Shown here in pieces: positions 8,244-27,934 of a stretch of 64,000 nt of DNA. The stretch covers positions 2,096,595-2,160,594 of the forward strand of contig NZ_CP025572.1 of assembly GCF_018336975.1 (NCBI RefSeq), in the 5' to 3' direction. Below the pieces are notes generated by a model. The model saw only the letters and a program-made list of their open reading frames with translations. It did not search any database and had not been told where the DNA came from. The translations under genes and the position numbers were made by a program. Each line of letters begins with the position of its first letter. Position 1 is the first letter of the stretch. The DNA comes from Marinomonas sp. CT5. Its GTDB lineage: Bacteria > Pseudomonadota > Gammaproteobacteria > Pseudomonadales > Marinomonadaceae.

Positions 8244-9209
8244 TTATTGCACCAATTCGTTATCAGTGAACTCGCCTTCAAATAACGCAGTAGACAAATA
8301 ACGTTCGCCAGAATCCGGTAATACGACGACTATTTTCTTGTCTTTGAATTCATCCAATTGATTTAAACGCTCTGCTGCAACCATAGCGGCACCACAAGAG
8401 ATACCACATAAAATGCCTTCTTCACGCATCAAGCGTTTTGCCATGGCGATAGCGTCTTCGTTGGACACCTGCTCAACACGGTCGACTACCGAAAGATCGA
8501 GGTTTTTCGGTACGAAGCCTGCGCCAATGCCTTGGATTTTGTGTGGGGAAGGTGTTGGGTCTTCACCGTTAAGAGTTTGGGTAATAACCGGTGAACTAGT
8601 GGGTTCTACCGCGACGCTCACAATGGCTTTGCCTTGGGTGTTTTTGATGTAACGGCTAACACCTGTGATGGTGCCACCTGTACCGACGCCAGCAACGAAA
8701 ACGTCGATTTCACCATTGGTGTCTTGCCAAATTTCAGGGCCAGTGGTTTTTTCATGAATTTCAGGGTTGGCTGGGTTATCGAATTGCTGTAGCAGCACAA
8801 AGTTCTCGTCTTGAGCAATTTCTTCTGCTTTTGCAATCGCGCCTTTCATGCCTTTGGCTGGCTCAGTTAATACAATATTGGCGCCCAAGGCTTTCATAAC
8901 TTGGCGACGTTCCACACTCATGCTGGAAGGCATAGTGATGGTGATTGGATAACCACGAGATGCCGCAACAAAACATAAGGCGATACCTGTGTTACCGCTA
9001 GAAGGTTCAACGATGGATTTTCCTTTCGTTAGAATACCTTTCTTTTCGGCATCCCACACCATGTTGGCACCGATACGACATTTTACCGAGAAGGCTGGGT
9101 TACGAGCTTCGATTTTCGCCCAGATATTGCCATTACCGATGCGATTTAAGCGTACAAGTGGCGTATTGCCAATGGTAAGAGAGTTATCTTCAAATACTTG
9201 ATGAGACAT
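8244..9209 (-). CDS. cysK: Cysteine synthase A
   Basis: A 321-residue O-acetylserine sulfhydrylase, the pyridoxal-phosphate enzyme that makes L-cysteine from O-acetylserine and sulfide. The PLP lysine is K43 in [14 protein letters not shown]. The substrate loop [11 protein letters not shown], the phosphate-binding [14 protein letters not shown] and the late [10 protein letters not shown] segment are all present, and the SVKCRIGAN context favours CysK over CysM. The frame is open for 50 more codons upstream, but the start at 9209 is chosen because the protein aligns from [19 protein letters not shown] and AAGGAAAT lies just before it. It is divergent from hrpA. Confidence 0.93.
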
Positions 9210-9455
9210 ACCATTTCCTTTTTGTTGTAGATCTGTGTTGAATGGCAACATCCTATTAGATGCGCCGCGAATGACGTTCACTATAACCCTTACCTTGGGA
9301 TTGATGTTAGAATTTACAACTATATCGTTAGAGGTTTTCGTACATCCAATTAACTTCACTTGACGTACAGTATTAAAACTTCTTATACAAACGGCGCACT
9401 GTTTATTATTTCTACTTTTTCTGCGCCAAGTAAAAAGGATACAAGTTTACCTATC

Positions 9456-13401: not shown

Positions 13402-14298
13402 ATGTTTAAAGTAATGAGGACTTTACTGTTTGGCTCTATGTTATTGCTTGTGCAATCTTGTGCTCAAGTGCCAGTAGAAACCAAAGGCGATCCATGGGAA
13501 GGGTTTAACCGTTCGATGTTTGCCTTTAATGATGCCGTTGATGGGGCGATTTTAAAGCCAGTTGCGAAAGGTTATAAGGCGGTGACACCAACACCTGTTC
13601 AAAAAGGGGTGAGCAATTTTTTCTCTAACTTAGGCGAGATTGGCAATATTGCTAATAACTTATTACAAGGTAAGTGGGATGGAACAGCCTCTTCCACATT
13701 CCGCTTTTTAATCAATAGTACCGCTGGCTGGTTTGGTATTTTTGATGTGGCCAGCGAGTTGGGTTTAAAAGAATACGATGAGGATTTTGGCCAAACCTTA
13801 GGTTATTGGGGAGTCTCCTCTGGTCCTTATCTTGTTTTGCCTTTCTTTGGGCCTTCAACCGTTCGAGATGGATCCGGTTTGGTCGTTACTTATACCTACT
13901 TGGATGAGACGGAGTCTCTAAACTTGAATCAAGATGAGAAACTTGGTCTTTTGGCCTTGGATGTCGTGCAGACTCGTGCTCGTTTGCTTAATGCCGAAGG
14001 CATGATCATAGGTGACCGCTATAGTTTCATTCGCGATGTGTATTTGCAGAGCCGAGCTTATGACGTTTATGACGGTAATCCTCCAAAACAACAAGTTAAC
14101 AAAGAGGTAAACTCCGCGGATGATAGTTGGGGAGATGAGCCGGCTGAAGACAGTTGGGGGGATGATTCTACAAGCGACAGTTGGGGCGACGACTCTGCAA
14201 CGGATAGCTGGGGTGATGAAACAACAACGGATAGCTGGGGGGATGAATCTGCGACCACTCAAGAGGATATTTCTAGCGAAAGCAGTTGGTCTGAATAA
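13402..14298 (+). CDS. mlaA: MlaA (VacJ) outer-membrane lipoprotein with acidic repeat tail
   Basis: A 298-residue lipoprotein of the Mla pathway, which removes mislocalised phospholipids from the outer leaflet of the outer membrane. A signal peptide ends at a lipobox, LLVQSC, and the MlaA core follows: DPWEGFNRSMFAFND, then the LGYWGVSSGPYLVLPFFGPSTVRDG motif. The start at 13402 has AAGGA eight bases upstream. The oddity is the C-terminus: after the core, residues 241-285 consist of five 9-residue repeats of the form DSWGD(D/E)xxx, then a Ser/Glu-rich end. E. coli MlaA has no such tail. The rest of the Mla transporter is not in the window. Confidence 0.92.
   Translation: MFKVMRTLLFGSMLLLVQSCAQVPVETKGDPWEGFNRSMFAFNDAVDGAILKPVAKGYKAVTPTPVQKGVSNFFSNLGEIGNIANNLLQGKWDGTASSTFRFLINSTAGWFGIFDVASELGLKEYDEDFGQTLGYWGVSSGPYLVLPFFGPSTVRDGSGLVVTYTYLDETESLNLNQDEKLGLLALDVVQTRARLLNAEGMIIGDRYSFIRDVYLQSRAYDVYDGNPPKQQVNKEVNSADDSWGDEPAEDSWGDDSTSDSWGDDSATDSWGDETTTDSWGDESATTQEDISSESSWSE
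14122..14256 (+). repeat. Five 27-bp tandem repeats in the mlaA 3' end
   Basis: Units at 14122-14148, 14149-14175, 14176-14202, 14203-14229 and 14230-14256 encode DSWGDEPAE, DSWGDDSTS, DSWGDDSAT, DSWGDETTT and DSWGDESAT. The DNA differs between units at third positions and in the variable triplet, so the protein sequence rather than a very recent duplication is being kept. Each unit is in frame, so slippage changes only repeat number. Confidence 0.95.
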
Positions 14299-14304
14299 TT
14301 GACG

Positions 14305-15330
14305 ATGAAAAAGCAACTATTAAACTATCAATGGTTCAGTGACAACACGTTTAACAACTCTTTGCTTAACGCTTTCTTGCTTGTTATTGGCTGCTCTTGT
14401 GTATTTCTGATTACCCTTAATGTTTATGTAATGCAACTCCCAATCGCTCTCATTGAGTTGGGTATTTTGGCTTTTACTGTGGGTGTTTGGTTTTGTCCTA
14501 AAGACTGGCGTTACTATCAATTAGTGAAATTTATCTATGTTAGCCTTCTTTTTTGCTTGATTTTGATTGGGATTGCCGTGTCGCCTTTGTATTCTGGTCG
14601 GCAAGTGTGGGTGCTTATTTTTCCCATGGCGTCTTATCTTTTGCTGGGCAAGCGTGCGGGTTTTTGGTTGAGCTTTATTGGCTATAGTGTGGTTAGTGCC
14701 ATTCTCTTTGAGCGTTTCTACGCTGACTTTGGTGTGGCTCTTGTTCGTATCTTTGTTAACCTAACCTTTACTTATGCTTTCGTGTGGGGGTTAACCTATG
14801 GTGCAGAATTAACACATAGAAAGATGCTTAAGACCCTAAGAAAAATCGCTATTACAGATCCGTTAACTGGACTAGCTAATCGGCGTGGTATGGCTGTTAA
14901 CTATCCGCTTCAGCTTGCGACTCTTGAAGGTAAAGGCGATGATCTCGCGTTTATTTTGATTGATCTAGATGAGTTTAAAAAAATAAACGACCATTATGGT
15001 CATGATATTGGTGATGTGGTTCTAATTGATTTTGCAGAAAGACTTAGGGCTCACGCGAATGATAATGAGCATGTGTTTCGTCTAGGTGGAGAAGAGTTTT
15101 GCATTTTGATGTCGGCTGAACAAGCTAAAGACTGGGCATTAACGTTTTGCCAGTATGTGGATGGCACTATTTTGAAGTTTGAGGGGATAGATATTCACTA
15201 TACGATTAGTGTTGGCGTATCTTTTAGTCAAAAAGAGGGCCGAGACTTTAAGCTTTTGTATAAGGCAGCCGATCAGCGTTTGTATAAAGCTAAAAGCCTT
15301 GGCCGTAATTGTGTGGTATTAGCAGATTGA
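14305..15330 (+). CDS. Membrane-bound diguanylate cyclase (GGEEF)
   Basis: A 341-residue protein with about six predicted membrane helices in residues 20-170, followed by a GGDEF domain (about 185-340) that synthesises cyclic di-GMP. The catalytic signature is RLGGEEFCIL, preceded by the typical DPLTGLANRRG and FILIDLDEFKKINDHYGHDIGD segments. There is no RxxD inhibitory site five residues before the signature; the equivalent position reads NDNE. Product feedback inhibition through that site is therefore unlikely. The membrane input domain resembles no sensor I can name. A TTG at 14299 directly after the mlaA stop is an alternative start; ATG 14305 is preferred. A terminator follows. Confidence 0.88.
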   Translation: MKKQLLNYQWFSDNTFNNSLLNAFLLVIGCSCVFLITLNVYVMQLPIALIELGILAFTVGVWFCPKDWRYYQLVKFIYVSLLFCLILIGIAVSPLYSGRQVWVLIFPMASYLLLGKRAGFWLSFIGYSVVSAILFERFYADFGVALVRIFVNLTFTYAFVWGLTYGAELTHRKMLKTLRKIAITDPLTGLANRRGMAVNYPLQLATLEGKGDDLAFILIDLDEFKKINDHYGHDIGDVVLIDFAERLRAHANDNEHVFRLGGEEFCILMSAEQAKDWALTFCQYVDGTILKFEGIDIHYTISVGVSFSQKEGRDFKLLYKAADQRLYKAKSLGRNCVVLAD

Positions 15331-18269: not shown

Positions 18270-19295
18270 TTATCCTTTGCGTTGATGATGTTTGACCAAT
18301 TCAATGGCCTCTAATAATACATTTACCTGTGCGTCAGCTTTATGACCGTTTTCAGACAGGTAGCGACGGAACTGTTTGCCGCCAGCTTCGCCCTGAAAAA
18401 TACCCAAAATGTGTCGGGTTAGGTGCATTAAGCGTTCGCCTTCATTGAGCTTGCGTTCCACATAAGGAACAAAAGCCTCTAGTGCTTCGTAGCGATCATG
18501 AACTAAGGCTTGACCGCCAAATAATACTTCGTCGACTTGGCTTAAAATCCAAGGATTATGGTATGCCTCACGGCCAACCATAACGCCATCTACGTGTGCT
18601 AATTGTTCTTTGCACTCATCTAGCGTTTTTATGCCACCGTTTATAATGATTTCAAGGTCAGGGAAATCTTTCTTTAACTGATGCACATAATGATATTTGA
18701 GCGGCGGTACTTCGCGATTTTCTTTCGGGCTTAAACCCTCCAAAATCGCATTGCGGGCATGGACAATAAAAGTCGTCACGCCAGTGGTGGCGACATCGCC
18801 AACAAAATCTCGTACTACGCTGTAATCTTCCTGATCATCCAAACCAATGCGATGTTTGATCGTCACAGGAATAGAGCAGTTGTCCTGCATAGCGCGCATG
18901 GCCTCTTTTACCTTGTCAGGGTGAGCCATTAAACAAGCGCCAATTAAACTGTTTTGCACTCTGTCACTTGGGCAACCGACATTAAGATTAACCTCATCAA
19001 AGCCAGCTTGCTCCGCCATTTTTGCGCATTTACCCAAGGCTACGGCGTCAGAACCGCCTAATTGCAACGCAATAGGGTGCTCACACTCATCATAACGTAA
19101 GAATCTTTCAGGATGATTGCCCTGAAGCAAGGCTCCAGTGGTCACCATCTCAGTATAGAGCAAGGTATTCTTGCTCAAGGTCCTCGCGAAAACTCGGTAA
19201 TCAGATGTGGTCCAATCCATCATTGGAGCAATGGAAAATCGACGATCAAGCCTATTGCTTGGGTTTACTGGGGTTGCCCCGTTTTCTAGTGACAT
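18270..19295 (-). CDS. dusA: tRNA-dihydrouridine synthase A
   Basis: A 341-residue flavoenzyme that reduces uridine in the tRNA D-loop (positions 20/20a). The FMN-binding start reads [16 protein letters not shown], the catalytic cysteine is C108 in [11 protein letters not shown], and IKHRIGLDD and [13 protein letters not shown] are the DusA-type motifs. The gene is intact. Its 5' end faces the accessory island that begins at 19296. This matters because the 5' part of dusA is a known integration target for a family of phage and island integrases. No integrase gene is present here. Confidence 0.95.
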
Positions 19296-19436
19296 GCTTC
19301 TACTATCGAATTAATTCAAAAAAGCGCCGCAACATAGGGAAATGTCCCCAGCGACTGATGAGTCACATTATGTCATAAAATTACAAGATAGCTAAGAGTC
19401 TAAGGGAAACATTGGGGTTTAAAAGGTGAAAGTGGC
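19296..19436. other. Boundary segment between dusA and the island
   Basis: These 141 bases hold the dusA promoter region on the minus strand and the start of the accessory DNA. I see no gene. No repeat of the dusA 5' end, as an attachment-site duplication would give, was found by eye near the far end of the island (22400-23233). Confidence 0.5.
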
Positions 19437-19662
19437 ATGAAAGGAGACTGGTCCATCGACAAAGTCACCGCACGAGGTGACAGCAAAAGCATCACCTATG
19501 CATCAACCATTAACCATCAACCTAACGCCAACAGGCAACCCAAGTTACAACCAACAAATAAGCGATCATGTGATAGAAAGACTCAAGGCTGAATTTGCAC
19601 AGGGCAATACGGACGTTGCCACAAGGGCCGATGGGAGCTTGACGGATAAGAGGGAAAGTTAG
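19437..19662 (+). pseudogene. Frameshifted remnant, possibly the end of a phage tail tape-measure protein
   Basis: Two overlapping short frames look like one protein broken by an insertion. The frame from ATG 19437 gives MKGDWSIDKVTARGDSKS then ITYASTI. The frame ending at 19662 gives INLTPTGNPSYNQQ, then a charged helix IERLKAEFAQGNTD and SLTDKRES. The junction (about 19499-19525) contains three near-identical heptamers, CATCAAC, CATTAAC and CATCAAC. Removing seven bases would join the frames as SITYASTINLTPTGN. A terminal segment of this style is common at the end of phage tape-measure proteins, but that is a weak family call. There is no preserved upstream part, so the gene is a fragment. 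Confidence 0.4.
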
Positions 19663-19754
19663 GTTTTATAATTGTCATTGGTTTGTAAGGTTTTTGCTGG
19701 AGTTAGATGAGGAAGGCATCTAGGATAAATATATATATATAAAAGGAAATACAG

Positions 19755-20504
19755 ATGTTGAATGAAAAGTTATTTGTCTCGCATTTTGTTGGTGAAGATA
19801 TTCCTACTTGGCCATGTCCTAATTGTGGTTCTTACTCATTGTCGTGCACGAAAGATCAATTTCAAAAAAGTTATAAAACCCCCATTGATCCAAATCATCC
19901 AAATTTTGACCCTGAATGGATTGAGTATGTTTTTAGTATGAATTTAAAGTGTTCAGTTGCTAAATGCTCAAGTCATGTCATGTGTGTTGGTAATGGAGGG
20001 GTATCGCAAGAATACCTTCATGATGGTTCGGGTAATTGGGATTGGTTTGATTCATTTGCAGTTACATTTTTTGAACCACCACTACAAATATTTGTACCAC
20101 CAAAAGAGACTCCACTTGATGTTAAAAAATCTCTTAAAACATCCTTTTCTACATTTTTCTCATCGCCAAGCACAAGCCTAACTCATTTACGTTCTTCTCT
20201 AGAGGTGCTTCTTGGTGAAATGGAAGTACCGTCAGTAAATGGAAAAGGGAGATTTTTCAAACTGGAAGAGCGTATTAAATTGCTTCCAGAAGAGTTTCAG
20301 GAAATTATAGAGCCAGCCAACGCTATTCGTTGGCTTGGTAATGATGGTACACACGCAGGTTGTCATGTACGTAAAAATGATGTACTTGATGGATATCGAA
20401 TTTTCGAGCATATACTTAAAGAACTTTATCCTGTACAAAATGCACCTATTGAAGAGTTGGTTAAACGTATCAATGATGCAAAAGGAATTGGTAAGAAAAA
20501 TTGA
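19755..20504 (+). CDS. DUF4145-domain protein with N-terminal zinc ribbon
   Basis: A 249-residue cytoplasmic protein. The N-terminal third has a zinc-ribbon-like set of cysteines: WPCPNCGSYSLSC, then LKCSVAKCSSH. The C-terminal half matches DUF4145: a helix LRSSLEVLLGEM, then RFFKLEERIKLLP, and the family motif AIRWLGNDGTHAG. I recall DUF4145 as one of the all-helical HEPN-related families, often found in defence or toxin loci; the exact activity is unknown. The start has AAAAGGAA seven bases upstream, and an AT-repeat tract (19729-19743) precedes it. Codon use is visibly more A+T-rich than in dusA or talB. It is the first of three plus-strand genes of the island. Confidence 0.75.
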   Translation: MLNEKLFVSHFVGEDIPTWPCPNCGSYSLSCTKDQFQKSYKTPIDPNHPNFDPEWIEYVFSMNLKCSVAKCSSHVMCVGNGGVSQEYLHDGSGNWDWFDSFAVTFFEPPLQIFVPPKETPLDVKKSLKTSFSTFFSSPSTSLTHLRSSLEVLLGEMEVPSVNGKGRFFKLEERIKLLPEEFQEIIEPANAIRWLGNDGTHAGCHVRKNDVLDGYRIFEHILKELYPVQNAPIEELVKRINDAKGIGKKN

Positions 20505-20532
20505 TATTAAAAATTACTTAATAAGGTAGTTT

Positions 20533-20601
20533 ATGAAGTTTGCGCTCGTGGATGAGGTTAGAAAAGAGCCCTTGAATTCTTTAGAAAATCAACGACTCTG
20601 A
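20533..20601 (+). pseudogene. Possible truncated CoiA-like N-terminus (22 codons)
   Basis: A short frame begins MKFALVDEVRKEPL, which resembles the start of the CoiA-like/HNH-associated family (MxFALVxGxRxEA), then stops after 22 codons. No continuation was seen in the next 66 bases. It may be the stump of a deleted gene or chance. A GCGTCA-ATTA-TGACGC hairpin lies at 20624-20639. Confidence 0.25.
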
Positions 20602-20667
20602 TCCCCTTGAATTTATAAAAATCGCGTCAATTATGACGCTCACAAGCTGTAAAGCTTCAGGATTACG

Positions 20668-21330
20668 ATGACAAATCAAAAAGTATATGATTTTTTTAGA
20701 GAGGGTGCTTGGAGTAGCTCATATGCATCACATTATAAGTGTGCTTGGCTATGTCTCTATGAATTTGAGAATATATTGGAAGCTCTCAAAGAGAAAGAAA
20801 TATCCCTTGAGAGTGAGGCAAAGAAAGTTCCCCCCGAGTTTTATAGCGCATTCATAAGACATGAAACGGATAATTTACACACGGATGCATACCGCTCAGC
20901 TACTTCTGCACACATTTATATATGTATGGCGATAGAGGGCTTTATCAATTTCTATGGCGTCAAACGGTTGGGTGAAACATATTACAAGCGTGTTTTAGAG
21001 CGTATTGGAATTACCGAAAAATTGATGTTGTTATATTTAGTTTGTTTTGATTATAAACTTGACCCTAATGAAGGGGTCGTAAAATTAATTAGGCAAGTAT
21101 TTGATCAAAGGAATTCACTGGTTCACCCTAAGACAAAAGAATTTACCTCTAAAAATTCCGACAAGTTTAACTATGTACACCCTTTTGAATTGGAAATTCA
21201 CCTTGCTTTTGAAGTAATGGAAGGTTTTATAAGTGAAATGTGTTCGAGGGATTCTCAAATAAATAAAGAGTTCCATTTTAAGAAACCCAACAAACCAATT
21301 CAGTCGAGTGCTGATGCATTAGCTTATTGA
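20668..21330 (+). CDS. HEPN-like hypothetical protein
   Basis: A 220-residue, mostly helical, cytoplasmic protein that I cannot place in a named family. Residues about 85-100 (SATSAHIYICMAIEGFINFYG) and 140-160 (VKLIRQVFDQRNSLVHPKTK) look like the two core parts of a HEPN domain; RNSLVH fits the R-x4-6-H signature of HEPN ribonucleases or pseudoenzymes. A long helix, EIHLAFEVMEGFISEM, follows. The gene lies between a DUF4145 and a DUF3644 gene on the same strand, 26 bases before the latter. It probably shares a transcript with the downstream gene. The HEPN call rests on the motif and context only. Confidence 0.55.
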   Translation: MTNQKVYDFFREGAWSSSYASHYKCAWLCLYEFENILEALKEKEISLESEAKKVPPEFYSAFIRHETDNLHTDAYRSATSAHIYICMAIEGFINFYGVKRLGETYYKRVLERIGITEKLMLLYLVCFDYKLDPNEGVVKLIRQVFDQRNSLVHPKTKEFTSKNSDKFNYVHPFELEIHLAFEVMEGFISEMCSRDSQINKEFHFKKPNKPIQSSADALAY

Positions 21331-21356
21331 AGCGTTAAATCAACGAAGGGGGTCTA

Positions 21357-22343
21357 ATGAAGTCACGTTCTCGATTAATGCTTGAAAAATCTATCGCTGC
21401 AATGCTGTCAGCAATTGAGATATACAACAAGCCTGACTTTAAATATCGTGAGGAGACATTTTCTGTATTATGCATTAATTCTTGGGAACTACTTTTAAAA
21501 GCTAAAGTTCTTAATCTGGCAAGTAACAAATTAGCTTCACTCTACTCAATGGAGCACAAAACACTTAAAACAGGAAAAAAATCGACTGTTTTAAGTCCCA
21601 AAAAAAACCGTTCTGGAAACCCACTGTCTATTAATATTTTTGAAGCATACAGGGTCACCACCGAGGATTATGGAGTAAAGATAGATAAGGCTGTATTCGA
21701 TAATTTGATTGCTCTTACCGAGATTAGGGATAACTCGATACATTTTGTAAATGATGACTTACTGTTGTCCTTAAAGATTCAAGAGCTAGGCAGTGCATCT
21801 CTTCAAAACTATCTTCATTTAGTATCTTCTTGGTTTGGTGATGTTCTATCAGGATACAATTTTTACCTTATGCCTTTGTCTTTTTTTAGAAATTTCAATG
21901 AGGCACCAGGTGTTTCGCTAAATTCAAGTGAAAAGAAAGTACTGGAATACATTAAAAAGTCAGAAGAGGGATATGATGGCACTGAGGACGTAGGCGATTA
22001 CAACTTAACTCTGAGAATCGATGTAAAGTTTCAGAAGGTTAAAAGTACATCAGGTCTTCCCGTTCAGGTTACGAATGATCCAACAGCGACATCAGTCTTC
22101 CTATCAGAAGAGGATTTTACTGATAAATACCCTTGGGACTACGATATTTTGAGTACTCGTTTATCAAAACGATATTCTGATTTCAAAATGAATGCAAAGT
22201 ATCACAGGTTAAGGAAGCAATTTGAAGGGGATAGGAAATTTGTATACGAACGGCTTCTGAACCCAAATAATCCAAATGGTGGGAAGAAGACTTTTTACAA
22301 CCCGAATATTCAAAAAGAGTTCGACAAACATTATAAAAAGTAA
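21357..22343 (+). CDS. DUF3644-domain (HEPN-like) protein
   Basis: A 328-residue protein whose N-terminal part matches DUF3644: MLEKSIAAMLSAIEIYNKP, YREETFSVLCINSWELLLKA, and the LTEIRDNSIHF motif with an R-x4-H signature typical of HEPN domains. A C-terminal extension of about 130 residues follows, charged and ending in PNIQKEFDKHYKK. The ATG at 21357 follows an AAGGGGG at 21345-21351. DUF3644 proteins are frequent in bacterial accessory regions, and I infer an RNA-targeting or abortive-infection type of role, not a demonstrated one. It is the last gene of the island's three-gene block; a small hairpin follows. Confidence 0.72.
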   Translation: MKSRSRLMLEKSIAAMLSAIEIYNKPDFKYREETFSVLCINSWELLLKAKVLNLASNKLASLYSMEHKTLKTGKKSTVLSPKKNRSGNPLSINIFEAYRVTTEDYGVKIDKAVFDNLIALTEIRDNSIHFVNDDLLLSLKIQELGSASLQNYLHLVSSWFGDVLSGYNFYLMPLSFFRNFNEAPGVSLNSSEKKVLEYIKKSEEGYDGTEDVGDYNLTLRIDVKFQKVKSTSGLPVQVTNDPTATSVFLSEEDFTDKYPWDYDILSTRLSKRYSDFKMNAKYHRLRKQFEGDRKFVYERLLNPNNPNGGKKTFYNPNIQKEFDKHYKK

Positions 22344-22364
22344 GTTAACAAGAGATTGAAGTCT

Positions 22365-22382
22365 ACAAAGTGCTAACTTTGT
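22365..22382 (+). terminator. Weak hairpin after the DUF3644 gene
   Basis: ACAAAGT (22365-22371) pairs with ACTTTGT (22376-22382) around GCTA, followed by a short T-rich stretch. The stem is only 7 bp and A+T-rich, so termination would be inefficient. Confidence 0.4.
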
Positions 22383-22518
22383 TGTTTACTCTTTCCACTC
22401 TCAAACAACTCTTGGTTTACTTTCTTCATTGACCCCACCACAATCTTGATCTAACACTCTTCTTGCATTGGCAAAATCCAGTGTCGGGATTGATCCCCCG
22501 TTCTAACCAAAGCGGCCT

Positions 22519-22542
22519 AAAACACGTACCGCGTGTTTTTTT
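22519..22542 (+). terminator. Small terminator-like hairpin before the C4 element
   Basis: AAAACACG (22519-22526) pairs with CGTGTTTT (22532-22539) around TACCG, and the T-run continues to 22542. It looks like an intrinsic terminator or the 5' hairpin of the adjacent structured RNA. Confidence 0.55.
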
Positions 22543-22670
22543 GTAGCCGAGATTCGGCTTTTATGGTAGGTCTTTGTTGGGCAACCTTCGGGTTGGCCGT
22601 TCCTACGGGCGGTAGTGCGAACCTGATTTAGATCCACCACCTTACTGAGATTCGAACCTCACGAGGTGGT
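22543..22670 (+). ncRNA. C4-type antisense RNA element (phage immunity RNA)
   Basis: A densely structured non-coding stretch. Hairpins: AGCCGA/TCGGCT (22545-22550 with 22554-22559); CAACC-TTCG-GGTTG (22582-22595); GTTC-CTAC ... GTAG-TGC-GAAC (22599-22622); ACCACCT/AGGTGGT (22636-22642 with 22664-22670) enclosing TGAG/CTCA. The primary sequence (CCTTCGGGTTGGCCGTTCCT, then GTAGTGCGAACCTGATTT) is what I remember from the C4 antisense RNA family of phages P1/P7 and many proteobacterial prophages, which represses a downstream antirepressor message. A remnant of an antirepressor-type gene follows, as expected. A covariance-model scan was not possible here. Confidence 0.62.
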
Positions 22671-22695
22671 CAACTTCATACACAGGAGGCCAAAC

Positions 22696-22865
22696 ATGGC
22701 TACGGACATTATTTCAAGCATTGACGCACCCATTGTACAAATCACTAACGATCAAACACTACTACCTCGACTGATCTTGCTAAATTCTTTGGCAAGCATC
22801 ACAGAAACGTTTTACGCAAAATAGTACTGCCTGGAGTTTGGGGTCAGATGAAAAATAGCGCCTAG
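22696..22865 (+). pseudogene. Frameshifted Rha-type phage regulator (antirepressor) remnant
   Basis: AGGAGG at 22684-22689 precedes ATG 22696. The first frame reads MATDIISSIDAPIVQITNDQT and then goes off-family. From about 22758 the next frame gives TTTSTDLAKFFGKHHRNVLR, which continues the Rha (pRha/phage regulatory) N-terminal domain exactly where the first frame leaves it. A single missing base near 22757 explains the break. The shifted frame stops at 22865, soon after the domain start, so the gene is both frameshifted and truncated. It lies directly behind a C4-type RNA, the usual antirepressor context. Confidence 0.7.
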
Positions 22866-23092
22866 TCTTCATCTACTCCAAACATCTCCGTGAGCAAAAC
22901 CAACCACAGACAACCTAGCACTAGCGGAAACAGACAGCTATATCCTCCAAAATAAGGCAACTGCTCAACAACAACGTCAAATCCATGCAGATACAAAGTG
23001 ATCCCGTTGCCCTTTTATCTAAAGAAGTGATCGAAATGATTCAAGCTATCTGCATTATTCTAGAAGTTCTGGGCCAGATAAATAATCCTTAG
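22866..23092 (+). pseudogene. Possible further broken phage reading frame
   Basis: No intact gene is present. One frame (to a stop at 22999) reads DSYILQNKATAQQQRQIHADT. A second frame, overlapping from ATG 22985 and ending at 23092, reads SDPVALLSKEVIEMIQ and ends in LGQINNP. A one-base shift at about 22996 would join them as a single helical segment. This resembles a decayed continuation of a phage gene, but the family is not recognised and chance cannot be excluded. Confidence 0.3.
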
Positions 23093-23121
23093 CTTCTTGA
23101 AATAATCAAACCAAACATCTC

Positions 23122-23149
23122 AAGCCCATCCCTGCGATGGGCTTTTTCG
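23122..23149 (+). terminator. Intrinsic terminator at island end
   Basis: AAGCCCATC (23122-23130) pairs with GATGGGCTT (23136-23144) around CCTGC, followed by TTT. It probably ends transcripts from the island before soxR. Confidence 0.85.
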
Positions 23150-23257
23150 TTTCTGTTTTCTATTCTTTCTAAGGGGTATTAATGTCTTTCGGAAGTTTGA
23201 GATAGGCGTTTAGACTGTTATCTTCATGATAGATTGAGTGAAGGTGGTAAGTATCAA

Positions 23258-23707
23258 ATGCAAAAAAAATTTATTCCAGAATGGATATCGGTGGGTGTGT
23301 TAAGTGAAAGGACTGGGGTGTCTGTGTCAGCTTTGCATTTTTATGAAAGGAAAGGGTTGATAAAGAGTCAAAGAAATACATCCAATCACCGGCAATATCC
23401 AAAACATGTTATTCGTATAGTCTCTCTGATTCAGGTTGCTCAGCGAACAGGGTTTTCATTGGAAGACATCTTGTTGGAGTTTGAAGAGTTGCCAAATCGA
23501 ACTCGTGTCACTCTTGAGGATTGGGAAGCATTGGGGTTGAGGTGGCAAAAAGAGTTGGATAGGAAGATTACTCAATTAACGGAGCTAAAAAGCATGATGA
23601 CCGATTGTATTGGTTGCGGTTGTCTTTCCCTTGAAAGGTGTAAGCTTCTTAATCCGCATGACGAATTGGCTGAAAAAGGGTCAGGACCAAGGCTTATGAC
23701 GGAATAA
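23258..23707 (+). CDS. soxR: Redox-sensitive regulator SoxR
   Basis: A 149-residue MerR-family regulator that senses redox-cycling compounds through a [2Fe-2S] cluster. The winged helix reads WISVGVLSERTGVSVSALHFYERKGL. The cluster motif C-x2-C-x-C-x5-C is intact as CIGCGCLSLERC, and NPHDELAEKGSGPR is the standard SoxR end. The frame extends to a TTG at 23234, but ATG 23258 with AAGGTGG ten bases upstream gives the usual length. No soxS is adjacent, as expected outside enterobacteria, and no SoxR-box dyad was recognised in the 100 bases upstream. Confidence 0.92.
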   Translation: MQKKFIPEWISVGVLSERTGVSVSALHFYERKGLIKSQRNTSNHRQYPKHVIRIVSLIQVAQRTGFSLEDILLEFEELPNRTRVTLEDWEALGLRWQKELDRKITQLTELKSMMTDCIGCGCLSLERCKLLNPHDELAEKGSGPRLMTE

Positions 23708-23885: not shown

Positions 23886-24665
23886 CTACATTTGTTTGAA
23901 TAAATGCGCGTTATTTCGACTTACTGGTAATATTCTATCAATTCCTTTGAGTAAAACGTTTAAGTAACCGTTCTCGTCTTTGACCACTTGTTTTATATGA
24001 CTAACCTGAATGATAACTGAGCGATGAATGCGCCAGAACTCATTAGGGTCTAGCTCTTCTAACAATTGTTTGATCGATTTTTTAATTAAAAAGTTACCTT
24101 GTTCAGTCACTACCGTGGTGTATTTATCCTCCGCAATGAAGCAGCTCACATCACTGACTTTAATGACATGGATACCATTTCCCTGAGAAGCATTAATCCA
24201 TTGTAGTGACTGATGTGTATGTTGGGGGAGTAATTTAGTCAATTGTTTGGCGTCAAGTTCATATTTGACTGTTGTTTGCGAACGTTTCTTTAATCGCTGA
24301 ATGCACTCTAGTAAACGCTTTTCATCTACAGGCTTTAATAAATAATCCAAAGCTTCATGTTCGAACGCAGCGACCGCATGTTCATCATATGCGGTAACAA
24401 ATACCAGATTACCACTATAGCTCGATTCACGAAGTGCTTTGGCCGTTTCAATCCCGCTAATTCCGGGCATTTTTATGTCCATAAAAATAGTGTGAATATT
24501 AAGTTCATTCGCGACATTCAACGCTTCTACGCCGGAGCCAACCGCGATAGTTTGGTCAATATCTTCCCAAAGTTCTTGCAATAGCTTCTGTAGGTGAAAA
24601 CGTAATAATGGTTCATCATCTACCACCATAACATGTACCAAATTTTCTGATTTAGTGTCCGGCAT
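23886..24665 (-). CDS. LytTR-family response regulator
   Basis: A 259-residue response regulator. The receiver domain (about residues 10-125) shows VMVVDDEPLLRF, the phosphorylated Asp in TIFMDIKMPGISG and the VTAYDEHAV switch region. The C-terminal LytTR DNA-binding domain (about 155-255) shows ISCF-like strands, TTVVTEQGNFLIKKSIKQLLEEL and the WRIHRSVIIQVSHIKQV motif. The start overlaps the end of the kinase gene by 14 bases, so the two are translationally coupled partners. The target is unknown; autoregulation of this four-gene cassette is plausible. LytTR direct repeats were not identified by eye upstream of the cassette. Confidence 0.88.
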   Translation of the reverse strand: MPDTKSENLVHVMVVDDEPLLRFHLQKLLQELWEDIDQTIAVGSGVEALNVANELNIHTIFMDIKMPGISGIETAKALRESSYSGNLVFVTAYDEHAVAAFEHEALDYLLKPVDEKRLLECIQRLKKRSQTTVKYELDAKQLTKLLPQHTHQSLQWINASQGNGIHVIKVSDVSCFIAEDKYTTVVTEQGNFLIKKSIKQLLEELDPNEFWRIHRSVIIQVSHIKQVVKDENGYLNVLLKGIDRILPVSRNNAHLFKQM

Positions 24666-25761
24666 TTCCCATTCCTAACATGGCAGAAGGTTGCAAGTTT
24701 AATGGCCAACTAAGTTGAACTTGGCAACCTGAAATCTGTTTCTGTTCATTTAATACATTATTGATCTCAAAACGAGCGTGCTCCCCATAAATCAAGAGCA
24801 GCCTTTGGCGAATATTTTTTAAAGCTATACCATGCTTATTGTCTGTGGTATCGGATTCTTGCCAGTTCGGTTTTAATCCAGCACCCGTATCACGAATGGA
24901 GACATAGCAGTTTTCATCATCAATACGCACAGAGACGGCAATGAATCCTCCTTCTAAACTCGGTTCAATGCCGTGAACAATCGCATTTTCAACCAATGGT
25001 TGTAGTAGGAATGGAGGGCACTCGGCTTTTTCTATAGCTCCTAGTTTTTGTATTTGAAAATTTAGCCTATCCCCCATTCGCACCTTTTGAATAGATAGAT
25101 ACGCGGCGACTAGGTCCAATTCTTCAACTAATTTAATACGCGGCTGTTTTATCTTGCTCATAGAAACTCTTAGCAAGCTGGTTAAATCGTCTAGCATGCG
25201 TTTGGCATCATTAGGTCGAATGTCAATTAAGACCTGAATGTTAGCAAGCGTATTGAATAGAAAATGCGGCTCAATTTGAGATTGCAGCATTTGGTAATTA
25301 GATTCTGCCAGTTGTTTTTCTTGCATGAGCGCTTTCATTTTCTGCTCTTGCAGCTCTTGCTCTTTTCGACTGAGTCTATGAGCATTATAAAAAATGTAAG
25401 TTACCAGCATGCTAAAAAGCACTTTCAAAAGCAGGTCTGACCAAGACGCATTCAGCACAGCATCAACGGAGTCATAAACTTGGTATAGTAAATAGCACAT
25501 ACCAATAATAACGCCGCCTAAGTAGCCTAATATTGTCGCCTTAAGGATAGATAACTTATCTTTTAAGTAATAAAGACTCAGCCGAATACAGGAAAAACAG
25601 GCTGCACCAAATACCAAAGATATTTGCAAGGTCATCCAGAACTCACCCGCTTTGGTGATCCAAATAACCACGGCAATCAAGGTACAATAAATCAGTACGG
25701 TTAAAGTGTCTTTGAGTAATTCATGACGATGCCAAAACGTCTTAAAAGGAAGTTTATGCAT
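24652..25761 (-). CDS. LytS-like sensor histidine kinase
   Basis: A 369-residue membrane kinase. Four or five hydrophobic helices occupy residues 15-140, then a coiled-coil linker rich in Glu, Gln and Lys. The His_kinase (PF06580) dimerisation motif is QSQIEPHFLFNTLANIQ, with the phospho-accepting histidine in PHFLFN. The ATPase part shows NAIVHGIEPS, a D-x-G box in IRDTGAGL and a G-rich HGIALKNIRQRL. It overlaps the upstream membrane-protein gene by eight bases and the regulator by 14. The short sensing loops suggest signal detection within the membrane, possibly with the neighbouring membrane protein. Confidence 0.87.
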   Translation of the reverse strand: MHKLPFKTFWHRHELLKDTLTVLIYCTLIAVVIWITKAGEFWMTLQISLVFGAACFSCIRLSLYYLKDKLSILKATILGYLGGVIIGMCYLLYQVYDSVDAVLNASWSDLLLKVLFSMLVTYIFYNAHRLSRKEQELQEQKMKALMQEKQLAESNYQMLQSQIEPHFLFNTLANIQVLIDIRPNDAKRMLDDLTSLLRVSMSKIKQPRIKLVEELDLVAAYLSIQKVRMGDRLNFQIQKLGAIEKAECPPFLLQPLVENAIVHGIEPSLEGGFIAVSVRIDDENCYVSIRDTGAGLKPNWQESDTTDNKHGIALKNIRQRLLLIYGEHARFEINNVLNEQKQISGCQVQLSWPLNLQPSAMLGMGNAGH

Positions 25762-26443
25762 AAGCTATTTCTCGTTTGTATTTAACTAACTTATAACTGC
25801 CCATCACGAAAAACCATAGCATGCACCCAACCCCAAAAATGCCTCCCAAATACTCTAACATAGGTGCGGCTGTTAACACTCCTACACAGCCAAACACAAG
25901 AGCGATACTTCTTAATAAAGGCGCAAGTGAGCAATGTGTATTCAAACTGAGCCCCATTGCAATCAACCAAAGGCCACCAACAATTTCATTACCACCACCC
26001 ATACCATTAATCAGCATTTGTAGGTTGTACCATTGCGAAATAGCCAGTTCTTGATGTTGACCCATAAGCTCCAGAATCATATGAGTCCCCACGTTGGCTA
26101 ACATACCCGTAACAATGGTAATACCAGCCCAGAGATACCCTAAAATTAAGGCAAAGGACCGAAAAAAACCTGTTACTAGGTGTGTTTTTATACTGATTTG
26201 AAAGCCAATTAATGCCAAACCAAATAGAATATAAATAACAAAGTACCATACATAAAGTAAGGTTGAATAAGAGGCTATAAATTCCAACTGAGGTAGGACG
26301 GCTTGTGCAGTATCCCCATATGATACATACGAAAGTAAGGCTACATAAACAATCATTCCCACTAGAAAGCTAAGCCCAGCTATCCAACTTGTTGTGCCGG
26401 TTAATAAGTTATTTTTCATCTTGGTGCGCCTATTGTTATTCAT
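25754..26443 (-). CDS. Multi-span membrane protein of unknown function
   Basis: A 229-residue protein with about six predicted membrane helices (for example GLSFLVGMIVYVALLSYV, LLYVWYFVIYILFGLALIGF and GGIFGVGCMLWFFVMGSY). I do not recognise a family with confidence; it may belong to the DUF4386-like group of integral membrane proteins. The start at 26443 lies three bases after the stop of the mipA-like gene, without a clear ribosome-binding site. Coupling is therefore likely; ATG 26419 is an alternative. The overlap with the kinase gene suggests it takes part in the same signalling system, perhaps as accessory sensor or output. Confidence 0.7.
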   Translation of the reverse strand: MNNNRRTKMKNNLLTGTTSWIAGLSFLVGMIVYVALLSYVSYGDTAQAVLPQLEFIASYSTLLYVWYFVIYILFGLALIGFQISIKTHLVTGFFRSFALILGYLWAGITIVTGMLANVGTHMILELMGQHQELAISQWYNLQMLINGMGGGNEIVGGLWLIAMGLSLNTHCSLAPLLRSIALVFGCVGVLTAAPMLEYLGGIFGVGCMLWFFVMGSYKLVKYKREIAYA

Positions 26444-26446
26444 TGT

Positions 26447-27202
26447 TTAAAACTGATAAAAAACAGAGAACGCGCCACTCCAGTAATTCGAGCGCTTAAC
26501 GATTGGACTATCAGCGATTGCTTCTCCTAAATGGTCATACGCTACTCTTGTCGCAAGATGCCATTTAGCCGTAATCGGGTAAACATGCGTTAACGAAAGG
26601 TTGGTATTCGTTGCGGCTTCACCTTTGTAAGCTGAAAAACGGCTATTGCTTTCTTTGGAACTTACGCCGTAATAATAGTCCACTAACTCATCAGATTGAT
26701 GTTGTATCGCTGCAGCAGGGATGAATGTTCCTAATCTGGTTTGAAGCTTTTTAGAGAGCATGAGTTTAGCTTCATAGCCTTCGTGAGTATTAGATACATC
26801 CGTTGATATAGCCGTTGTGATATCTACAATGGGAGTGTAATGAGTCCATTGTAGTGCTAGTTCGGTCGCGTCATCACGTTTGTCAAAATGTTTTAGAAGG
26901 TCGTTATCCTCTTTATCAAAGACCGACTCTCGCATTAGAAATACACTGCTAAATTGATCGTTTGTGCCTACTTTTTTCGTTAAACCTATTCCTTCTGGTC
27001 CCACGATGAACATACCGTACTGAACATTCAAATACGGATGAATTTTGACATCATTGTCTTCGCCAATGACATGATTTTGTTCGCCTAATAATGAAAGCCC
27101 AAGGTTGGCATTTAACTCGGTTGCATTGGCAAACAGGCTAACACTTGCTAACAGAATAGGGGCACTCCATTTAGTCGTTGTTACTAAGGTACGCATTTTC
27201 AT
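26447..27202 (-). CDS. MipA/OmpV-family outer-membrane protein
   Basis: A 251-residue protein with a signal peptide (ending around SLFANA) and alternating strands of a small beta barrel. The C-terminal part fits the MipA/OmpV family: DYYYGVSSKES, LSLTHVYPITAKWHL, DSPIVKRSNYWSG and a final VFYQF ending in phenylalanine, the outer-membrane insertion signal. MipA scaffolds murein enzymes in E. coli, but OmpV-type members have varied roles. The frame is open 24 codons further upstream; 27202 or 27196 gives the proper signal peptide. It heads a coupled minus-strand cassette with a membrane protein, LytS-like kinase and LytTR regulator. Confidence 0.78.
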   Translation of the reverse strand: MKMRTLVTTTKWSAPILLASVSLFANATELNANLGLSLLGEQNHVIGEDNDVKIHPYLNVQYGMFIVGPEGIGLTKKVGTNDQFSSVFLMRESVFDKEDNDLLKHFDKRDDATELALQWTHYTPIVDITTAISTDVSNTHEGYEAKLMLSKKLQTRLGTFIPAAAIQHQSDELVDYYYGVSSKESNSRFSAYKGEAATNTNLSLTHVYPITAKWHLATRVAYDHLGEAIADSPIVKRSNYWSGAFSVFYQF

Positions 27203-27934
27203 CTCTTTACTCTTTTTTCTCTGTTGATGGGTATTTTTAAAGAATGCACTCCAAAAGTGCGGGCTAAAGATCACATAAAATAAACTGGGCGAAATGATCA
27301 GGTGACGAAAGGTCGTATTAAGAGATAAATGGAAAAATACGGGGATGAGATGTTTAACGGGAAAAGCTTTGATGTGTAGAAGACTCGAAAATTCGTATTG
27401 CTAACTTCATGCAGAGATGAGTCTGTATATTTTTTAATTTTCTTTATTTTTCAAATAATTAAAGTAGTCATGAAAGCAATAATTTCTTTGTGGGGCTTTG
27501 CAAATCATGATGTCAGGTGGCGATGAACTCTAAGGGAATAAGCTATTTTTATAAGAAGGTATTTGTGTACGCTCGTCTGGTAAAAAATTGATCATGAAGC
27601 GGTCGTTTTTAGTGCGTTATGTCAGAAATACGACTTGTTTTTTGGCTTTTTCATTACAGTTCTATATATCTTTTATTTTGTGAAAATACCGCTAGAGGTT
27701 GTTTTTTGTTCATTATTACGGTGTTTTTGTTGAAAAATTTACCAAAAAAGCCATTCTTGTGTGTTTATTATTTTATGGATTTTAGTGCTTCTTGGTTTTG
27801 GTAAGATTTTTGAATGTTAAACAAAACGTAAATATTTAGACTTGTAAGTAATAAAAATTATCACTATGCTAAATAAACGTTAAGTCGTTCTCCAACAATG
27901 ATTTACGCATTATGTTTAACAACAGAGAGCCGTT
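27203..27934. other. Long A+T-rich intergenic region
   Basis: About 730 bases without a supported gene, between the divergent mipA-like gene and proV. It is rich in A and T tracts. A 61-codon frame (27619-27804, plus) has no ribosome-binding site and a composition dominated by Phe and Leu, so it is not called. The right end holds the proV promoter. The left half presumably holds the mipA-cassette promoter and any LytTR sites, which I could not identify. Confidence 0.6.
27842..27870 (+). promoter_or_regulatory. Probable sigma-70 promoter of proVWX
   Basis: TTGTAA (27842-27847) and TATGCT (27865-27870) are separated by 17 bases, and the -10 lies 64 bases before the proV start. The surrounding sequence is very A+T-rich, as at osmotically controlled promoters. 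Confidence 0.55.

Follow-up and report, generated by a model that had tools for sequence, protein, structure and literature searches.

The window analysed here is a stretch of 64,000 nucleotides from Marinomonas sp. CT5 (contig NZ_CP025572.1, positions 2,096,595 to 2,160,594), and all positions are counted from its first letter. A block adjoining dusA (19296-23184) has three intact genes on the plus strand, here called A, B and C, with phage pieces on either side. An earlier note on this DNA had described the block as a decayed prophage island at dusA, in which selection had kept three HEPN-like genes that might form a new defence set. The three intact genes are confirmed, and so are prophage remains at the 5' end of dusA, with stubs of genes D and T on the left and isrK, C4 and rha on the right. 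The flanks are the recurrent borders of a prophage cargo slot, and not only the product of decay in place.

Genes and phage pieces of the block

The open reading frames of the three genes have a G+C content of 35-36%, and a purine-rich stretch lies ahead of each start codon (Table 1). Genes B and C are separated by 26 bases. A promoter scan gave no sign of a promoter ahead of gene A (3 sites were found, where shuffled sequences gave 10.1 on average).

The flanks were identified with query proteins from a relative (G428, dusA-upstream stretch L054), namely a tape-measure protein (PF10145), Rha (PF09669), P2 GpU (PF06995) and a gpD-like protein, which were compared with the window using tblastn. 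What had been seen as a frameshifted tail-like fragment on the left is a stub of a P2-like gene D, consisting of 20 codons out of the C-terminal part of the gene, followed by a stub of the tape-measure gene T. On the right, the C4 RNA and the rha pseudogene that had been proposed were recovered by Rfam and tblastn. The isrK-C4 pair presumably controls rha. PF10145 and PF09669 are carried by the full-length relatives of T and Rha, and a relative's D protein is PF05954-like with a score of 28.7 bits, which is slightly below the Pfam cut-off of 30.1. The matches to the phage parts are far above chance, with blastn E-values down to 1e-144 (22424-22824 against a relative). The whole block gave no blastn match in phage records. 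There is no integrase gene among the block's open reading frames, judged by eye, and a dusA query in 18270-40000 matched dusA itself and no second dusA 5' end.

Table 1. Positions of the features in and beside the block
Feature	Position	Strand	Evidence or remark
dusA	18270-19295	-	open reading frame; the block starts at its 5' end
Stub of P2-like gene D, codons 307-326 of 338	19431-19490	+	tblastn, 85% identity, E 5.6e-5
3' stub of tape-measure gene T, last 52 codons (770-821)	19513-19659	+	tblastn, 83% identity, E 1.8e-19
Gene A, DUF4145 protein, 249 amino acids	19755-20504	+	PF13643, E 1.4e-10
Gene B, 220 amino acids, predicted HEPN fold	20668-21330	+	model with predicted local distance difference test (pLDDT) score of 89.8; structural matches
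GTTAAAT, cassette-core-like letters, status uncertain	21334-21340	+	23 nucleotides ahead of the start of C
Gene C, DUF3644 protein, 328 amino acids	21357-22343	+	PF12358, E 3.9e-50
TAACAAG, attC-left-arm-like letters, status uncertain	22346-22352	+	directly after the stop of C
isrK small RNA	22465-22541	+	Rfam RF01394, 54.2 bits
Broken rha, 5' part, two overlapping frames	22533-22823	+	tblastn, 68% and 37% identity
C4 antisense RNA	22559-22644	+	Rfam RF01695, 53.2 bits
Broken rha, 3' part	22958-23089	+	tblastn, 36% identity, E 6.7e-4
Sequence preceding gene U in relatives (pre-U)	23104-23184	+	blastn, 82-90% in 6 relatives' stretches
Terminator-like hairpin	23122-23144		within the pre-U sequence

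Gene A belongs to a family, DUF4145, that the available part of a survey of the HEPN superfamily files under HEPN, with the motif noted in about 80% of DUF4145 (PMC3710099). The Pfam family together with this survey supports a HEPN-type assignment at the level of sequence. In an alignment of 34 sequences, four N-terminal cysteines (C21, C24, C66 and C71) and the motif G195-N196-x3-H200 are conserved; the cysteines are invariant and R192 is nearly so. The R-x4-H motif named in the earlier note is present in B (R148-x4-H153) and C (R124-x4-H129) but not in A, which has R-x7-H instead. The nearest arginine of A, R192, stands seven residues ahead of H200, outside an R-x4-6-H spacing, and position 195 is an invariant glycine. 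The PADLOC model PD-T7-4 matches A weakly (E 0.005) and only over residues 111-209. The protein database holds 74 relatives of A, and 116 plasmid records carry one (30-36% identity among the 20 matches listed). Within the genus, A is found again in G026 (63% identity, on another contig) and weakly in G007. The only phage match is Salmonella phage SEN8 (30%). In this P2-type phage the relative of A (L050 272-1012) adjoins dinI.

At E <= 1, gene B is not assigned to any Pfam family. In the structural comparison of its predicted model, HEPN chains rank at the top, and its motif RNxLVHPK contains R148 and H153, each conserved in at least 90% of 30 sequences. Gene B is HEPN-like by predicted fold and R-x4-H, and represents a HEPN-like family without a Pfam model. 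It has 30 relatives in the protein database, recurs weakly in G027 within the genus and has no match in phages, plasmids or viral contigs.

Gene C matches the PADLOC candidate PDC-S19 over its full length (PDLC04954, E 3.7e-146). PDC-S19 is a candidate defence system only, and no paper on it was found in the literature searched. Residues 1-165 are HEPN-like, HEPN chains head the structural comparison of the predicted model, and all 30 aligned sequences share R124-x4-H129. Gene C is HEPN-like in predicted fold and R-x4-H as well, so the structure prediction that had been suggested as a check returned a HEPN fold for both B and C. A comparison of A, B and C with solved structures by sequence gave nothing convincing. 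The protein database has 3470 relatives of C and plasmids have 5 records. One viral contig has a relative of C at 83% (L078 3410-4402), with endolysin-like and tail-like genes as its neighbours.

The proportion of nonsynonymous differences (pN) between distant relatives is 0.231 for A, against a proportion of synonymous differences (pS) of 0.689. For C, pN is 0.109 and 0.193 against saturated pS of 0.90 and 0.86. The suggested selection on the cargo is therefore seen in general, with pN well below pS for the families of A and C; constraint on this particular copy is not.

The three genes do not keep company elsewhere. No two of them stand together in any of 59 outside loci (13 for B, 7 for A and 39 for C), among which L015 alone, a B locus, lost its own match under the local profile. 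Of 369 genomes in a class sample, 3 have A, 3 have B and 2 have C, counting the own genome each time, and the others are all different genomes; the thresholds were E 1e-3 (B), 1e-30 (A) and 1e-50 (C). The genus was searched for A in 48 genomes and for B and C in 35 of the 48; at the thresholds used, no other genome has any two of the three and none has C. These counts refer to the loci and genomes examined, since the 74, 30 and 3470 database relatives carry no context. In this sample the three-HEPN set proposed as a unit is not supported, and the earlier note had named such a lack of co-occurrence as the first finding that would refute it.

Recurrence of the flanks beside dusA

The gene dusA is present in 48 of the 48 genus genomes searched. 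From these, 20 dusA-upstream stretches, each at most 20 kb long, were chosen by hand, mostly those with the closest dusA. Five parts of the window recur in them (19437-19487, 19480-19735, 22427-22824, 22831-23062 and 23104-23184), and 15 of the 20 stretches have at least one phage piece. Those without are L060, L062, L065, L066 (1,037 bases only) and L067.

The recurring pieces are referred to here as seams, namely the 3' ends of D, T and rha together with isrK-C4. The D-stub DNA (19437-19487) is repeated in the relatives' loci, for example in several copies in L054. This locus has a full D followed by cargo and four more matches to the D end, and its rha 3' end occurs in two copies with cargo between them. 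In 12 of 23 D matches at the DNA level, those of the L054 stubs included, the likeness stops no more than 5 bases from the D stop codon, and unrelated cargo follows. Of the 8 seam-bearing loci scanned, which were picked for matching the window there, all have isrK and 6 have C4. In L051 an Rfam sRNA-Xcc1 (2349-2433, 67.4 bits) lies ahead of a copy of rha and replaces isrK-C4.

A complete-looking P2-like prophage of about 50 kb is found at dusA in G018, with its integrase adjoining dusA. Pfam identified a gpA-type terminase, capsid E and a sheath gene, and other structural genes were recognised by eye. At the far end of the prophage, 50 kb from dusA, the first 29 codons of dusA are present a second time. 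Its U and D proteins are 29% and 32% identical to the query proteins; its T stub has 93% identity and lies 17 bases past the D match. The order from D to the dusA copy is the T stub, an HNH/ABC-3C gene, a DUF2326 gene, isrK-C4, rha (83%), two D stubs and an endonuclease I gene. The way in which the D end joins the T end in the window is similar to that in G018. Since D is at 32% and the T stub at 93%, the seam block and the phage body differ in history. The cargo between the T stub and isrK (L118 2106-4691) consists of an HNH gene with an ABC-3C C-terminal domain (PF20277, PF13391) and a DUF2326 ATPase.

The broken phage genes had been taken for decay around selected cargo. Similar stubs border different cargo in the relatives and occur inside the complete-looking prophage, so mere decay is not an adequate description of them.

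The cargo of the relatives was aligned as 66 proteins from 86 references, leaving out 15 of L064 (an intact prophage body), 4 of the L055 lytTR block and one of L070. The families listed are the first 25 of 189 for PADLOC and the first 25 of 42 for Pfam. Scanned singly, 8 of 20 cargo proteins have a PADLOC match at E <= 1e-3. The matches are to PDC-S15, PDC-S32, PDC-S31, DitA, a Ppl-type ATPase and a TIR protein, and weakly to LmuB and SIR2. In the control, 2 of 10 chromosomal proteins of the window match PADLOC, both being ABC ATPases on generic ATPase models. Among the matches listed there are also a cytosine methylase in L052 and one DUF4238 protein. In the available text of PMC9122126, an E. 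coli P2-hotspot protein with the DUF4238 domain blocks T7. Because of the 8 PADLOC matches, the methylase and the DUF4238 protein, the slot is defence-rich in appearance, judged against a small control.

L054 has two further HEPN-looking cargo genes. One (8755-9225) has a weak match to HEPN_Cthe2314 (E 7.9e-4) that does not reach the cut-off, and the other (13764-14354) was recognised by eye from the letters RLRNLVAH and has no Pfam match. A pair that looks HigBA-like by eye occupies the slots of L051 (10415-10989) and L061 (9014-9585). The starts of the two pairs are nearly identical, which points to individual cargo units having been exchanged recently.

Origin of the block and alternative readings

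The block is probably the relic cargo compartment of a dusA-integrating P2-like prophage family, in which the D and T ends on the left and isrK, C4, rha and the pre-U sequence on the right, as seams, surround three independent single-gene cargoes. The main reason for reading the window as a cargo compartment is that the seam block travels in a prophage with different tail genes. The phage body between dusA and the D end would have been lost from the window, with the seams and cargo remaining. The cargoes may have been stacked one by one through exchange between phages with common seam genes, possibly by recombination at the gene ends. A D match is present in 28 of the 48 genus genomes. Among the 76 D matches listed, 48 are on the dusA contig, 43 of them lie within 60 kb on the 5' side of dusA (18 genomes), and 28 are on other contigs, many from fragmented assemblies. 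Several distances weigh against a strict link to dusA: a second, weak D match of G000 lies 858 kb away, one of G010 is 2.65 Mb away and both matches of G029 are about 0.9 Mb away.

Each of the three genes would most likely act alone, as an abortive-infection or translation-arresting RNase that is triggered by infection. Infection would release or activate the HEPN RNase, host or phage RNA would be cut and the burst would be stopped. For the prophage, such cargo would shield the host from rival phages. One option for the trigger of gene B is tail-protein sensing as in Tha, by analogy. What appeared to be a new three-gene system is better read as three candidate genes, independent of one another, in a slot that can be defined and searched for. 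The seams may serve as probes to collect defence-like cargo across genus genomes.

Prophage defence hotspots are a kind already known, and the present slot is a different form of it. According to the available text of PMC9122126, P2-like phages and P4 satellites carry exchangeable, often anti-phage genes, and the proposed route of exchange is recombination between phages. The E. coli P2 hotspot described there resembles the present case in that P2-like prophages carry exchangeable genes. It lies beside cos between gpA and gpQ, whereas the slots here are between T and U and after D; as far as that text goes, the present slot also differs in carrying isrK-C4-rha and in having repeated 3'-end stubs of T, rha and D as borders. 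The dusA-associated islands and the P2-like Smhb1, as described in the accessible parts of PMC4482086 and PMC8537503, integrate in the dusA 5' end and have a displaced dusA 5' end on the far side, as in G018. Both the integrase and the second dusA 5' end of that arrangement are present in G018; neither was found in the window. The families of A and C are listed in the HEPN survey (PMC3710099, same part), and B and C share its R-x4-H, but B matches no Pfam family and A is without the R-x4-6-H spacing. Prophage-borne HEPN proteins are also represented by Tha of S. aureus (PMC11087260, in the portion available), and by HepS of Gifsy-1 as far as the title of PDB entry 9oik describes it. The likeness to both is one of description.

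A further possibility, which falls somewhat short of being probable, is that A, B and C are gene cassettes of integrons, which the prophage slot took up as stand-alone genes and whose attC sites have eroded. In G126 a divergent integrase (PF00589 with PF13495), which we take to be IntI, precedes a relative of C, and after this relative, at the contig end, comes a strong hairpin that resembles attC (dG -29.3, z -8.2). Past the 63% relative of A in G026 stand attC-like letters whose ends pair (dG -16.2, z -2.4). The letters GTTAAAT that precede C in the window also occur 20 nucleotides before the C relative in G126. Of 10 seam places, 4 have TAACAAG at a distance of 109-129 bases ahead of isrK, compared with a background of 1.7% (binomial 1.5e-5, for a motif chosen after an alignment had been seen), and the cargo of L054 has attC-like hairpins.

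The window itself has no folding attC, with z-scores of -0.45 between B and C and -1.9 after C in single-base shuffles, and gene B is without cassette evidence. Arms of attC are found in 8 of 76 cargo open reading frames and 8 of 99 controls, and folded attC candidates in 7 of 76 and 11 of 99, respectively. At z <= -3 there are 3 candidates in the cargo, all in L054, and 3 in the controls, two of which are one terminator hairpin. A strict attC scan gave 1 match in 20 stretches and 2 in the window outside the block. The own genome has no integrase match at E <= 1e-40, and the flanks in L078 and L071 have no attC-like letters that fold. A set of 20 stretches beside IntI-like genes, several of which end at contig ends, yielded too few clean attC sites for a model. 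Since the general attC tests did not separate the cargo from the controls, the cassette origin is kept as a bold reading and not as a conclusion. It is more doubtful still that the P2-like prophage slot was loaded from an integron cassette pool as a whole, with HEPN cassettes captured between the T, rha and D ends under the isrK-C4-rha unit and moved from host to host at dusA, so that phages carry defence genes stored in integrons. If the cassette origin were true, two gene reservoirs, integrons and prophages, would be linked.

Ordinary decay is unlikely. It would require that a single P2-like prophage with three morons was degraded, and that the likeness among the relatives is due to shared descent of that event. 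In favour of it, the junction from dusA to the D stub is common to the window and G433 (19200-19487 at 94%) and rha is broken. However, the cargo varies among the relatives, and the stubs are in multiple copies per locus and occur in a complete-looking prophage with a divergent body. That A, B and C are an undescribed three-HEPN defence system with jointly acting parts is very improbable and was rejected on co-occurrence: they are intact, on the same strand, closely spaced at B-C and all HEPN-type (A by family, B and C by predicted fold), but none of the 59 outside loci holds two of them, genomes with one relative lack the other two at the thresholds used, and their relatives differ in abundance.

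Neighbouring genes

The gene soxR (23234-23707, TTG start) lies directly after the pre-U sequence and matches TIGR01950 with 174 bits. It has no match in the 20 dusA-upstream stretches of relatives, and therefore may be either cargo or chromosomal. A response-regulator/kinase block (23886-27346) follows, which is 98% identical to a block in G026 (L055 14811-18274). The G026 copy sits between a divergent rha and a D stub. The response-regulator/kinase block itself may have moved with the island.

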